From NCBI GenBank assembly GCA_022779945.1, contig JALEYA010000089.1, positions 1-36,684 of the forward strand: a stretch of DNA of 36,684 nucleotides, read 5' to 3'. Shown here one piece after another: positions 9,507-14,760 of this stretch. Made by a program: the position numbers and the translations under genes. A model generated the notes under the pieces. The model was not told the DNA's origin. It saw only the letters and a list, made by a program, of their open reading frames with translations, and did not search any database. Source of the stretch: Oscillospiraceae bacterium (GTDB taxonomy: Bacteria; Bacillota; Clostridia; Oscillospirales; Acutalibacteraceae). Positions within the stretch are counted from its first letter, which is position 1. Each line of letters opens with the position of its first letter.

Positions 9507-10526
9507 ATGGCAATAAGACAGGGAAACAATACGATTCTATTGGAAACAAAGCCCGAAATCATTTCGAATGCCGCCGTCGCCGGTAAAAAGGAAGGCGAGG
9601 GACCGCTTGCCAAATACTTTGATGAAGTCTTTTTTGACGGAACGCTTGGTATGGACTCGTGGGAAAAGGCGGAAAGCAGACTGCTCAAGTCGGCGGCCGA
9701 AAAAGCGATCGCCAAGGCAAATCTTCGGGCAAGCCAGGTGCAGGCGATTTTTTCGGGCGATCTTCTCAACCAATGCACCGGCTCATCGTTCGGTATCAGA
9801 GGGCTGGGAATTCCTTTTGCGGGACTGTTTTCCGCCTGTTCGACAATGTCGCTGAGTCTGGCGTTGGCGTCATTGGCGATGGAAACGGGTGCCTTTGCAT
9901 ACACCGCCGCGGCAACCTGCTCGCATTTTTGTTCAGCGGAAAAGCAGTTCCGACTGCCGCTTGAATACGGAGGACAGCGAACACCGACAGCACAATGGAC
10001 AGTAACGGGGGCGGGAGCGGCGATACTCGGGAAGAGGCAGCATGAGTCAAACCCGTACATTGATGCGGTTCACATCGGAAAAATTGTTGATTACGACATT
10101 ACGGACGCGAACAATATGGGTGCGGCAATGGCACCTGCCGCGTGTGACACCATTTGCGGCTTTTTAAAAGATACCGACACCGTACCGTCCGACTACGATA
10201 TGATTCTGACCGGAGACTTGGGCAAGGTCGGAAGCGAACTGCTGTGTCAGCTGACGGAAAAGGAACACGGTATCAATATCAGAAGTGTTCACCGTGACTG
10301 CGGACTGATGATTTTTGATCTTGACAAGCAGGACGTTCATGCGGGCGGTTCGGGCTGTGGCTGCAGTGCAAGTGTGCTGTGCTCCTATATCTTAAATTCG
10401 ATGAGAAAAAACAAATTCAAGAAGATACTCTTTGCCGCAACCGGTGCGCTGATGTCGCCCGTTTCCTCCCTTCAGGGAGAGAGCATACCGGGTATCTCCC
10501 ATGCGGTAAGAATTCTGAAAGATTGA
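9507..10526 (+). CDS. spoVAD: Stage V sporulation protein AD
   Basis: Thiolase-like SpoVAD sequence, e.g. GLGIPFAGLFSACSTMSLSLALASLAMETG. Confidence 0.95.
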   Translation: MAIRQGNNTILLETKPEIISNAAVAGKKEGEGPLAKYFDEVFFDGTLGMDSWEKAESRLLKSAAEKAIAKANLRASQVQAIFSGDLLNQCTGSSFGIRGLGIPFAGLFSACSTMSLSLALASLAMETGAFAYTAAATCSHFCSAEKQFRLPLEYGGQRTPTAQWTVTGAGAAILGKRQHESNPYIDAVHIGKIVDYDITDANNMGAAMAPAACDTICGFLKDTDTVPSDYDMILTGDLGKVGSELLCQLTEKEHGINIRSVHRDCGLMIFDLDKQDVHAGGSGCGCSASVLCSYILNSMRKNKFKKILFAATGALMSPVSSLQGESIPGISHAVRILKD

Positions 10527-10543
10527 AAAGGGAGGGGTTTAAT

Positions 10544-10732
10544 TTGAATGCGTTTTCGGTTTTTAAAGCGATGTTTTGCCTTTTGAGATGCGGGCATTTC
10601 CTTTATACTGCCAAAAAAATTGTGTCGGTTCTGACAATGATCCTTTTTGTGTGCTCGGTCGGACTTTGTGTTTTCGGCGATAATAAGCGGATGAAGCGTT
10701 TGGCGTCAAAGATGAAGGCGGTGATAAAATGA
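10544..10732 (+). CDS. 62-aa putative membrane protein between spoVAD and spoVAE (TTG start)
   Basis: GGGAGGGG SD then TTG; MNAFSVFKAMFCLLRCGHFLYTAKKIVSVLTMILFVCSVGLCVFGDNKRMKRLASKMKAVIK; ATGA overlap with spoVAE. Confidence 0.6.
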   Translation: MNAFSVFKAMFCLLRCGHFLYTAKKIVSVLTMILFVCSVGLCVFGDNKRMKRLASKMKAVIK

Positions 10733-11094
10733 CGGTCTTTCTGGCTCTTTTAAAGGCCTTTCTGGTCGGCGGTCTGATCTGTGTGATCGGTCAGCTTCTG
10801 ATTGATCTGACAAAGCTGACACCCGGCAAAATTCTTGTGCTGTTCGTTGTTGTCGGAGTGGTTCTCGGGGCGCTCGGTCTTTATGCACCGGTTGTCCGTT
10901 TTGCCGGCTGCGGAGCGACGATACCGCTTGTCGGCTTCGGGTACAATCTTGCGGAAAAAACGAAGCTTGCTGTAAGTCAGGAGGGTCTTATGGGTGTTCT
11001 GACGGGGCCATTGTGTGCGGCTTCGGCAGGAATTATGGCGGCAATCCTCGGCGGACTGATCGTTGCGCTGTTTGCAAAGCCGAAGGAAAAGTAG
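10729..11094 (+). CDS. spoVAE: Stage V sporulation protein AE
   Basis: FLVGGLICVIGQLLIDLTKLTPGKILVLFVVVGVVLGALGLY; operon position. Confidence 0.93.
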   Translation: MTVFLALLKAFLVGGLICVIGQLLIDLTKLTPGKILVLFVVVGVVLGALGLYAPVVRFAGCGATIPLVGFGYNLAEKTKLAVSQEGLMGVLTGPLCAASAGIMAAILGGLIVALFAKPKEK

Positions 11095-11111: not shown

Positions 11112-11145
11112 GTCCTTTCCGATTCGGGAGGGACTTATTTGATTT
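11112..11145 (+). terminator. Terminator after spoVA operon
   Basis: gtcctttcc gattc gggagggac followed by ttatttgattt; some G-U pairs. Confidence 0.6.
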
Positions 11146-11260: not shown

Positions 11261-11289
11261 TTGACAAACGGAAAACACCGTACTATAAT
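11261..11289 (+). promoter_or_regulatory. Consensus sigma-A promoter of the cysteine/sulfur operon
   Basis: TTGACA (11261-11266), 17-nt spacer, TATAAT (11284-11289). Confidence 0.85.
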
Positions 11290-11328
11290 AATACCAACCT
11301 AAACGGTAGGTGGAAAGCAGGTGGCCCA

Positions 11329-11403
11329 ATGCCGAGAGATTTTCAGGAATTATTAAGAGCCAACTTCCGTTTCGGACGAATGTGTTGCTGTTGTAACGCC
11401 TAA
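11329..11403 (+). CDS. Poly-cysteine leader peptide MPRDFQELLRANFRFGRMCCCCNA
   Basis: ATG after gcaggtgg SD-like sequence; 24 codons ending TAA; four consecutive Cys codons (TGT TGC TGT TGT, 11383-11394) upstream of a sulfhydrylase/cysK operon. Confidence 0.75.
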   Translation: MPRDFQELLRANFRFGRMCCCCNA

Positions 11404-11445
11404 AGATTCCGTATAAAAAACACATTTAAAGAAACGAAAGGAAGT
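11363..11445 (+). promoter_or_regulatory. Candidate translational attenuator hairpin sequestering the OAH sulfhydrylase SD
   Basis: ACTTCC (11363-11368)/GGAAGT (11440-11445); GTTTC (11369-11373)/GAAAC (11431-11435); AATGTGTT (11379-11386)/AACACATT (11419-11426); SD GGAAG lies in the 3' strand. Confidence 0.6.
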
Positions 11446-11452
11446 ACTTATT

Positions 11453-12739
11453 ATGTCAAACAATTATAAATTCGAAACCCTCCAGCTTCACGTCGGTCAG
11501 GAAACGCCTGACCCAGCAACCGATTCGCGTGCTGTTCCCATTTATCAGACAACCTCTTACGTTTTCAGAAACTGCGAGCACGCTGCCGCAAGGTTCGGAC
11601 TTGCCGACGCCGGCAACATCTACGGAAGACTGACCAACTCCACACAGGACGTCTTTGAAAAGAGAATTGCCGCTTTGGAGGGCGGTATCGCCGCTTTGGC
11701 TGTTGCTTCCGGCGCCGCTGCTATTACATACACGATTGAGGCACTTGCCCAGAACGGCGGTCACATTGTGGCGCAGAAGACGATTTATGGAGGAAGCTAC
11801 AATCTTTTGGCGCATACGCTCCCGAATTTCGGCATTACCGCAAGCTTCGTCAATATTCACGATCTCAGTGAAGTTGAAGCCGCCATTCAGGATAATACAA
11901 GAGCGATCTACATCGAAACACTCGGAAACCCGAACAGCGATATTCCCGATATCGACGCTTTGGCTTCGCTTGCTCATAAGCACGGACTTCCGCTTGTAGT
12001 CGACAACACTTTCGGTACTCCTTACCTGATCCGACCGATTGAGCACGGCGCAGATATCGTTGTCCACTCTGCCACCAAGTTCATCGGCGGTCACGGCACG
12101 ACCCTCGGCGGCATTATCGTCGATTCCGGCAAGTTTGACTGGGCGGCGTCCGGCAATTATCCCGCAATCGCCGCACCGAACCCGAGCTATCACGGTGTAT
12201 CCTTCACCGCCGCCGCAGGTCCTGCCGCATTTGTTACCTATATCCGTGCGATTTTGCTTCGTGATACGGGCGCAACCATTTCACCGTTTGCCGCTTTCCT
12301 GCTTTTGCAGGGTGTCGAGACACTTTCTCTGCGTCTTGAACGGCACGCGGAAAACACGAAGAAGGTTATAGAGTATCTTGTAAACAATCCCAAGGTTGAG
12401 CACGTCAACCATCCGTCGCTTCCCGATCATCCCGACCATGCACTTTATGAAAAATACTTCCCGCAGGGCGGCGGTTCGATCTTCACCTTTGAAATCAAGG
12501 GCGGAGTCAAAGAAGCGCACACCTTCATCGACAACCTCGGGATTTTCTCGCTTCTTGCCAATGTGGCCGACGTCAAGAGCCTTGTCATTCATCCGGCGAC
12601 CACGACGCATAGCCAGCTGAATGATGCTGAGCTTCTTGACCAGGGAATCAAGCCGAACACGATCCGTCTTTCCATTGGTACGGAAAACATTGATGATATT
12701 ATCGCCGACCTTCAAAAAGGCTTCGACGCTGTTGAGTAA
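11453..12739 (+). CDS. O-acetylhomoserine (thiol)-lyase / sulfhydrylase
   Basis: PLP Cys/Met metabolism enzyme; FETLQLHVGQETPDPATDSRAVPIYQTTSYVF, HSATKFIGGHGTTLGG. Confidence 0.94.
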   Translation: MSNNYKFETLQLHVGQETPDPATDSRAVPIYQTTSYVFRNCEHAAARFGLADAGNIYGRLTNSTQDVFEKRIAALEGGIAALAVASGAAAITYTIEALAQNGGHIVAQKTIYGGSYNLLAHTLPNFGITASFVNIHDLSEVEAAIQDNTRAIYIETLGNPNSDIPDIDALASLAHKHGLPLVVDNTFGTPYLIRPIEHGADIVVHSATKFIGGHGTTLGGIIVDSGKFDWAASGNYPAIAAPNPSYHGVSFTAAAGPAAFVTYIRAILLRDTGATISPFAAFLLLQGVETLSLRLERHAENTKKVIEYLVNNPKVEHVNHPSLPDHPDHALYEKYFPQGGGSIFTFEIKGGVKEAHTFIDNLGIFSLLANVADVKSLVIHPATTTHSQLNDAELLDQGIKPNTIRLSIGTENIDDIIADLQKGFDAVE

Positions 12740-12761: not shown

Positions 12762-13694
12762 ATGTCTAAGATTTATGCATCCGCCGACCAGCTCATCGGC
12801 AAAACACCGCTTCTTGAGCTGACACATATCGAAAAAGCGTTGGGATTAAAAGCAAAAATCCTCGCAAAGCTTGAATATTTCAATCCCGCCGGCTCCGTGA
12901 AGGACAGAATCGCCAAGGCGATGATTGACGACGCGGAAAAAAGCGGAAAGCTGAAGTCCGGTTCGGTGATTATCGAGCCGACCTCGGGCAATACGGGCAT
13001 CGGTCTTGCCGCCGTTGCCGCCGCAAGAGGCTACCGGATCATTATTGTGATGCCCGAAACGATGTCTGTCGAGCGCAGACAGCTGATGAAAGCCTACGGT
13101 GCCGAACTGGTTCTCACCGAGGGCGCAAAAGGCATGAAGGGTGCCATCGCAAAGGCGGACGAGCTTTCGAAAGAAATCCCGAACAGCTTCATTCCCGGTC
13201 AGTTTGTCAATCCTGCTAACCCCGAGGCGCACCGCGAGACAACCGGTCCCGAAATCTTTGAAGACACCGACGGCGAAGTTGATATTTTCGTAGCAGGTGT
13301 CGGTACAGGCGGTACCGTAACGGGTGTCGGTGAATATCTCAAGTCAAAGAAGCCTGAAGTCAAGGTTGTTGCCGTCGAGCCGAAGTCATCTGCCGTTCTT
13401 TCAACCGGTGTTCCCGGCGCACATAAGATTCAGGGCATCGGCGCAGGCTTTGTTCCCGACGTGCTGAACACCAAGATTTACGATGAGATTATCACGGTCG
13501 AAAACGATGACGCTTTTGAAACAGGAAAGCTGATCGGAAAAAAAGAGGGCGTGTTGGTTGGTATTTCCTCCGGCGCTGCGGTTAAAGCGGCAATTGAGCT
13601 TGCCAAGCGTCCCGAAAATGAGGGCAAAACGATCGTTGCGCTCTTACCCGATACGGGTGACCGCTATTTGTCCACTCCGCTGTTTGCGGACTGA
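12762..13694 (+). CDS. cysK: Cysteine synthase A (O-acetylserine sulfhydrylase)
   Basis: [49 protein letters not shown]. Confidence 0.96.
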
Positions 13695-14364: not shown

Positions 14365-14760
14365 ATGATTTCAACAAGAGGAAGATATGCACTTCGTGTG
14401 ATGATTGATTTGGCCGAACACAGCGGTGACGGCTATATTCCGATGAAGGACGTTGCCAACCGTCAGGGAATATCTCTCAAATATCTGGAACGGATTCTGC
14501 CTGTCCTTGCCAAAAACAATTATATCCACGGTATGCAGGGTAAGGGCGGCGGCTATAAGCTGACTAAGCCTGCTGAAGAATATCGGGTAGGGGACATTCT
14601 CCGCCTGACCGAAGGCGATCTTGCGCCGGTTGCCTGTCTGCACGGCGGAGAGAATACCTGCGAACGGGCAGACAAATGCAAAACCGTTAAAATGTGGAGC
14701 GATTATTATGAGACAACGAACAAGTTCTTTGACGGGATCACACTGGCAGATCTGATGTAA
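14365..14760 (+). CDS. Rrf2 family transcriptional regulator
   Basis: MISTRGRYALRVMIDLAEHS...ISLKYLERILPVLAKNNYIHGMQGKGGGYKL; Cys-bearing C-terminal segment. Confidence 0.93.
   Translation: MISTRGRYALRVMIDLAEHSGDGYIPMKDVANRQGISLKYLERILPVLAKNNYIHGMQGKGGGYKLTKPAEEYRVGDILRLTEGDLAPVACLHGGENTCERADKCKTVKMWSDYYETTNKFFDGITLADLM

Follow-up and report, generated by a model that had tools for sequence, protein, structure and literature searches.

A conserved leader peptide with an invariant CGA-AUG dicodon probably controls metY-cysK by translation attenuation in Clostridia

The short open reading frame (ORF) found upstream of metY is probably a conserved, cis-acting leader peptide that controls the metY-cysK operon by translation attenuation. 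Sequence comparison shows the peptide itself, its CGA-AUG dicodon, its placement ahead of metY and MetQ/NlpA genes, and its complementarity to the Shine-Dalgarno (SD) of its own downstream gene. On our best reading, a pause at CGA-AUG-(UGY/UGA) would report methionine/cysteine supply, a signal that we infer, and this pausing is probably assisted by the nascent peptide. A leader-peptide family upstream of metY and MetQ/NlpA in Clostridia is apparently undescribed so far: no earlier description of the FRFGRM family, of a metY leader peptide or of methionine-codon leaders was found in the open-access literature.

An earlier note on the window (the whole 36,684-nucleotide stretch that was analysed) had pointed to a 24-codon ORF with four Cys codons, to a consensus promoter, and to an O-acetylhomoserine sulfhydrylase/cysK operon downstream. 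All three were found where it had placed them, the ORF being recognised in relatives as well. The features of the locus are:

11261-11289, + strand: sigma-70 promoter, TTGACA (11261-11266)-N17-TATAAT (11284-11289), 12 of 12 consensus positions matched; transcript leader-metY-cysK
11293-11313, + strand: imperfect palindrome ACCAACCTAAACGGTAGGTGG, directly adjoining the -10 element; predicted operator
11319-11324, + strand: SD-like AGGTGG of the leader ORF, read from the sequence
11329-11403, + strand: leader peptide ORF, MPRDFQELLRANFRFGRMCCCCNA and stop, 24 codons
11377-11382, + strand: invariant dicodon CGA-AUG (Arg-Met), a predicted ribosome pause site on the basis of codon conservation and hexamer enrichment
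11383-11394, + strand: four Cys codons TGT TGC TGT TGT after CGA-AUG; a lineage-specific extension, variable in relatives
11453-12739, + strand: metY, O-acetylhomoserine/O-acetylserine sulfhydrylase (TIGR01326, E 1e-187)
12762-13694, + strand: cysK, cysteine synthase A (TIGR01139, E 2e-138)
14365-14760, + strand: Rrf2-family regulator, IscR/CymR-like (PF02082, E 1e-34), downstream on the same strand

The same promoter arrangement was seen ahead of the leaders in many relatives, and a purine-rich site was present in 58 of 61 of them, at the same spacing from the ATG located 17 codons before the final Met. Palindromes of the ACCAACCTAAACGGTAGGTGG type occupy the same place ahead of many clostridial metY leaders, and two hexamers are enriched upstream of metY (AACCTA, 21 versus 4.0; GTAGGT, 13 versus 1.6). 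The palindrome is probably the operator of the operon's Rrf2-family regulator, an assignment deduced for a protein that scores under both the CymR and the IscR equivalog cut-offs. A gene for an HD-domain protein also lies downstream of cysK, on the same strand. On the other side, the sporulation genes spoVAD and spoVAE (9507-11094) finish just upstream of the leader promoter, and their terminator may be the hairpin found at 11112-11134. An Rfam scan of the window gave no family at gathering score and nothing plausible at E < 5, and NCBIfam holds no family for the 24-mer.

A search of 85,462 species genomes with a degenerate DNA pattern for RFGRMCCC yielded 53 matches. Twenty-eight were short leaders directly 5′ of metY (20) or of MetQ/NlpA (8), in Clostridia or Bacillota-type records, and the remaining ones were unrelated frames. 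Among 297 genomes of the order, only the window matched the exact FGRMCCC pattern. Without the Cys requirement, the search upstream of metY revealed a wider leader family, with members in many families of the class Clostridia, the relatives being mostly metagenome assemblies; one cultured carrier is Cuneatibacter sp. NSJ-177 (L047). Fifteen same-genus genomes have a metY that is 79% identical or more; 14 of them had the same 18-residue peptide at the same place, and the 15th had FRNGRM. The targets are metY and MetQ/NlpA methionine-type ABC transporter genes, in one case (L044) with MetN and MetI as neighbours. The window's own genome carries a second copy of the leader (L104/L195, G000:C129), ending in FEDLVRQNFRFGRMCG and stop, upstream of a MetQ/NlpA lipoprotein gene; a second promoter, TTGACA-N18-TATAAT, lies between this leader and its gene and could bypass the leader. 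On one contig (L085), two separate metY genes each have their own FRFGRM leader (RMCCCCC and RMPCFF).

The consensus of the family comprises 18 residues, M-x3-F-x2-L-[LVI]-R-x-N-[FY]-R-F-G-R-M. Positions -6 to 0, counted from the final Met, partly served to select the leaders, so that the independent positions are -8, -10, -13 and -17. At these, Arg -8 was found in 61 of 61 leaders, Leu -10 in 53 and Phe -13 in 51, and in 50 of the 61 the distance from the ATG to the final Met was exactly 17 codons. The peptide has a fixed length, with invariant residues at -8, -6, -4, -2 and -1 (from -6 on, partly by selection). Arg -8 and Arg -4 each use all six codons, and the Phe, Asn and Gly codons vary as well. 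Conservation of the amino acids together with synonymous freedom is a mark of ribosome arrest peptides, and the leader family displays it.

One codon escapes this freedom. When the search accepted every Arg codon, CGA was the last one in 63 of 63 leaders. A second count disregarded the peptide and took every short ORF upstream of metY or MetQ that had an SD and contained Arg-Met; it gave CGA in 67 of 70. In the window genes, from which the codon usage background was taken, CGA represents 6% of Arg codons, and 0 of 23 CGA codons precede ATG. A count of over-represented hexamers upstream of 91 metY genes put CGAATG first (50 regions, versus 5.0 in dinucleotide shuffles), above TTGACA (41 versus 6.6), in shuffle statistics which, like the swap statistics given below, are not fully independent since the leaders share descent. 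In these 91 regions the other five Arg-ATG hexamers showed no enrichment. Some distant leaders have lost the peptide yet kept CGA-AUG (MGECYIFRMCLCCCGK, MKANIQRRYCRM, MFKPEIKKQNYTICCRMR). The tRNA-Arg anticodons recovered from the assembly, which is 91% complete, were ACG, TCT, CCT and CCG, with no TCG, and CGA was read slowly when measured in vivo in an enteric bacterium with a his-leader assay (PMC4046918). That CGAAUG is kept through pairing with the SD was ruled out, as these six bases do not pair with it (z +1.3). Its invariance is thus accounted for only by the proposed pause.

The bases around the dicodon are predicted to pair. Three further features of the window are needed here:

11363-11373, + strand: ACTTCCGTTTC, predicted anti-SD arm within the leader (Asn-Phe-Arg-Phe codons), from duplex energy and a hairpin in the fold
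11379-11387, + strand: AATGTGTTG, 5′ arm of a second helix with AACACATTT (11419-11427), 8 nt, 100% complementary
11431-11445, + strand: GAAACGAAAGGAAGT, metY SD region, predicted pairing partner of ACTTCCGTTTC from complementarity and fold

The ACTTCCGTTTC/GAAACGAAAGGAAGT duplex was estimated at -13.9 kcal/mol, and only 2 of 74 SD regions pair better. The AATGTGTTG/AACACATTT helix is present in the minimum-energy fold, and in the sister species L003/L207 its pairing, as read from the sequence, is kept despite changed bases. The fold of the whole window leader is unremarkable (z -0.72). To go beyond this single locus, a swap test was applied to the 74 leaders located 55-150 nt from their gene, using the leader stretch within about 20 nt of CGAAUG. 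Pairing was -9.85 kcal/mol with the own gene's SD region and -7.58 kcal/mol with those of the others (z -9.8), these energies being approximate model values and the swapped pairs including related sequences. A control stretch nearer the leader start gave z -2.4, and the preference for the own gene's SD region held after GC matching (p 6e-7 and 2e-5). On average over loci, leader and SD therefore co-vary, as in translation attenuators; in 11 of 60 FRFGRM leaders, neither flank of CGAAUG pairs strongly. The position of the arm differs: in some relatives it follows CGAAUG immediately (CGAATGTAACCTTTCTTC versus GAAGAAAGGA; TGATCCTCA versus TGAGGATCA; GGTAAAATCC versus GGATTTTACC), and in others, the window included, it consists of the Asn-Phe-Arg-Phe codons. 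Conservation of FRF solely as an anti-SD was ruled out for leaders with an AGA or AGG middle Arg codon, where native and swapped pairing are equal. These leaders keep NxRFG with no anti-SD pairing upstream of CGAAUG, and this speaks for selection acting on the peptide.

A paused ribosome was then modelled as a block of 29 nt around the AUG. With this ribosome on CGA-AUG, the mean accessibility of the SD and start codon rose from 0.43 to 0.53 (p 2e-7), 16 of 74 loci gained more than 0.2, and none lost. A ribosome placed 45 nt upstream had no effect on SD accessibility in the model. No intrinsic terminator was found between the leader ORF and metY in the window, so classical terminator attenuation is not what the window shows, and the evidence favours sequestration of the metY SD. 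Of the ribosome-mediated attenuation put forward in the earlier note, control by the ribosome is thus well supported, and the terminator form is not.

The mechanism that we favour is as follows. When no ribosome is paused, the leader codons, or the bases just 3′ of them, would pair with the metY SD and keep translation low. A ribosome paused at the end of the leader would cover the anti-SD arm and free the SD. The pause would be set by the slow CGA codon, for which the only recovered reader is the ACG inosine tRNA-Arg, followed by AUG and then by Cys or UGA, and the conserved nascent chain would assist it. Shortage of charged Met-tRNA, of charged Cys-tRNA or of a related metabolite would lengthen it, so that synthesis and uptake of sulfur amino acids would rise on demand. 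In the lineage of the window, the poly-Cys run would add cysteine sensitivity. In Clostridia, S-box, T-box and CymR-type systems are usually held responsible for methionine and cysteine control; the leaders would add a widespread, unannotated layer of peptide-based control in gut and rumen bacteria. Such genes escape six-frame pipelines, and the 18-residue motif gives annotators a search key.

A more specific proposal, which we make tentatively and hold to be possible rather than likely, is that CGA-AUG is itself the sensor, the leaders forming a new class, spread across gut Clostridia, in which a codon pair plus an arrest peptide senses methionine/cysteine supply. With CGA held in the P site by a poor I-A wobble pair, AUG decoding would become unusually sensitive to charged Met-tRNA, and the conserved nascent chain would strengthen the pause. 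Apart from this proposal, the fixation of one synonymous codon out of six directly before Met is a natural experiment on the way in which a codon pair sets ribosome speed. The direct prediction is that a CGA to CGT change alone breaks regulation.

Four other explanations were weighed against translation attenuation. The first, which we regard as unlikely but still as a serious alternative, is an arrest peptide of the TnaC/SpeFL kind, where free methionine, S-adenosylmethionine, cysteine or a relative would freeze the ribosome carrying LLRxNFRFGRM at R-M-UGA/UGY. The fixed length and the invariant residues fit this idea, and so do the stops: where a stop follows Arg-Met, it is UGA in 19 leaders, UAA in 4 and never TAG, and TnaC too stalls on a penultimate Arg that is followed by UGA, which RF2 reads (PMC8429421). 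A sensor made of peptide only, however, needs no single codon out of six, and CGA-AUG is kept in distant leaders with unrelated peptides such as MGECYIFRMCLCCCGK and MKANIQRRYCRM. Moreover, if the SD is released as predicted, an end product that arrested the ribosome would turn metY on, not off.

The second is a classical cysteine-codon attenuator, in which the charging of Cys-tRNA, sensed at the four Cys codons, decides between transcription termination and readthrough; we judge it rather improbable. In its favour, RFGRMCCC forms recur across many genera, and Cys makes up 7.4% of leader residues, versus 1.8% in window genes, so that cysteine sensing may be one input. However, in 60 leaders gathered without a Cys requirement, the residue after Arg-Met was Cys in 26, a stop in 23 and another residue in 11, so that 34 of them have no Cys directly after Met, and Cys runs of at least 3 occurred in only 3. 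Within the genus, Arg-Met is followed by a stop, CRCTN, CPSFC, CKVSC, YGAND or PAFQ. We conclude that the poly-Cys tail is a variable extension. UGN follows the AUG in 45 of 60 leaders. The earlier note had proposed conservation in relatives as the check on its claim. The ORF frame passed it and the Cys codons did not: a conserved, cis-acting regulatory leader of a Firmicute sulfur amino-acid operon is supported, and the poly-Cys run as its defining element is not. The classical attenuator also leaves the invariant CGA-AUG and the conserved peptide unexplained, and the window leader has no terminator.

Terminators do exist elsewhere, and the leaders L155 and L116 indicate that Cys/Met-codon attenuators of metY occur in Clostridia. 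The L155 leader, MIIELVISMDMCMCSMDMHAKKCMSAVF and stop, is Met/Cys-rich, has no CGA-AUG and is followed by a terminator; from its sequence, it looks like a classical Met/Cys-codon attenuator. L124 has a Met/Cys-rich leader with a weak terminator, and L116 reads Cys-Cys-Arg-Met. Strong terminators follow the leaders of L013, L114, L116 and L179. These four, otherwise divergent, place CCCGG[GA]CA at an identical distance, +13 to +20 counted from the C of CGA; it is complementary to the 5′ arm of the terminator and is a predicted antiterminator arm. The same genes thus appear to be under leader-ribosome control through either transcription or translation, with Met/Cys codons recurring. For the translation type, the predicted regulatory sign is clear, a pause giving expression. 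The transcription type leaves it more doubtful, since part of the +13 to +20 arm would be covered by a ribosome holding AUG in its A site. Upstream of more distant clostridial metY genes (L156, L163, L176), S-box-like sequences were recognised by eye. An Rfam search (S-box, T-box and other elements) upstream of 20 leader-less metY genes returned only one c-di-GMP-II match.

The third explanation, very unlikely in our opinion, is that CGAAUG(UG) is primarily a nucleotide motif, the site of an RNA-binding protein or nuclease, the ORF frame being secondary. The enrichment of CGAATG does exceed that of the promoter, and there is one clear exception to the frame rule: upstream of the L118 metY, the frame of CGAATG is not that of the SD-bearing leader (MKFTKILRMRPCGAKDEC and stop). 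This may come from a misassembly or from decay of the leader, or it may point to a role at the nucleotide level. Elsewhere, CGA-AUG is almost always in frame with the leader start, and the adjacent amino acids are conserved although their codons vary freely. Finally, short ORFs are common, 24 codons is small, and the window's ORF list is full of spurious frames, but a chance ORF with no function is refuted by the conservation across families, the constant CGA, the hexamer enrichment and the peptide statistics, and we give it practically no credit.

How does the system compare with those already described? As in trp, his and leu attenuators, the leader ORF contains regulatory codons (four Cys codons and one internal Met codon), but the terminator and competing antiterminator before the first gene are absent from the window. 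The polycysteine leaders of actinobacterial cys genes, cysteine-responsive according to the title of Canestrari et al. 2020 (doi 10.1111/mmi.14498, cited in PMC9094748 and PMC13236596), are described as translation attenuators in PMC13236596, with an earlier account in PMC1262725. They share with our ORF its small size, Cys codons near the stop, a place upstream of cysteine/sulfur genes and, often, no recognisable terminator. They differ in that the mycobacterial ORFs are described as leaderless whereas the window ORF has an SD-like site, in that here the core is the FRFGRM peptide with its invariant CGA-AUG, the Cys run being optional, and in that the targets here are metY and MetQ/NlpA. As polycysteine attenuators are defined by a Cys run conserved in the family, and the run is not conserved here, the leader family falls outside that definition. 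The uORFC-8-2 motif upstream of cysS in Rhodobacterales (PMC8632094) is similar in that the Cys codons of a leader ORF are proposed to sense Cys-tRNA; it is of the transcription terminator type, belongs to alphaproteobacteria and has tandem Cys codons at 14-15, and neither FRFGRM nor CGA-AUG is reported for it (PMC8632094). Like the S-box (SAM-I) riboswitch of Firmicute methionine genes, the leader would control methionine/cysteine genes, but unlike it the window leader matches no Rfam family. With TnaC and SpeFL it shares a fixed short peptide, conserved residues near the peptidyl-transferase centre, a penultimate Arg and a preference for UGA at the stop, and it departs from TnaC by its invariant Arg codon and optional Cys tail. 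Overall, the system works most like a translation attenuator. As in the Erm type (ermC leader), a paused leader ribosome is predicted to free the sequestered SD of the next gene, with the difference that no antibiotic or resistance gene is involved and that the clostridial targets are amino-acid genes.
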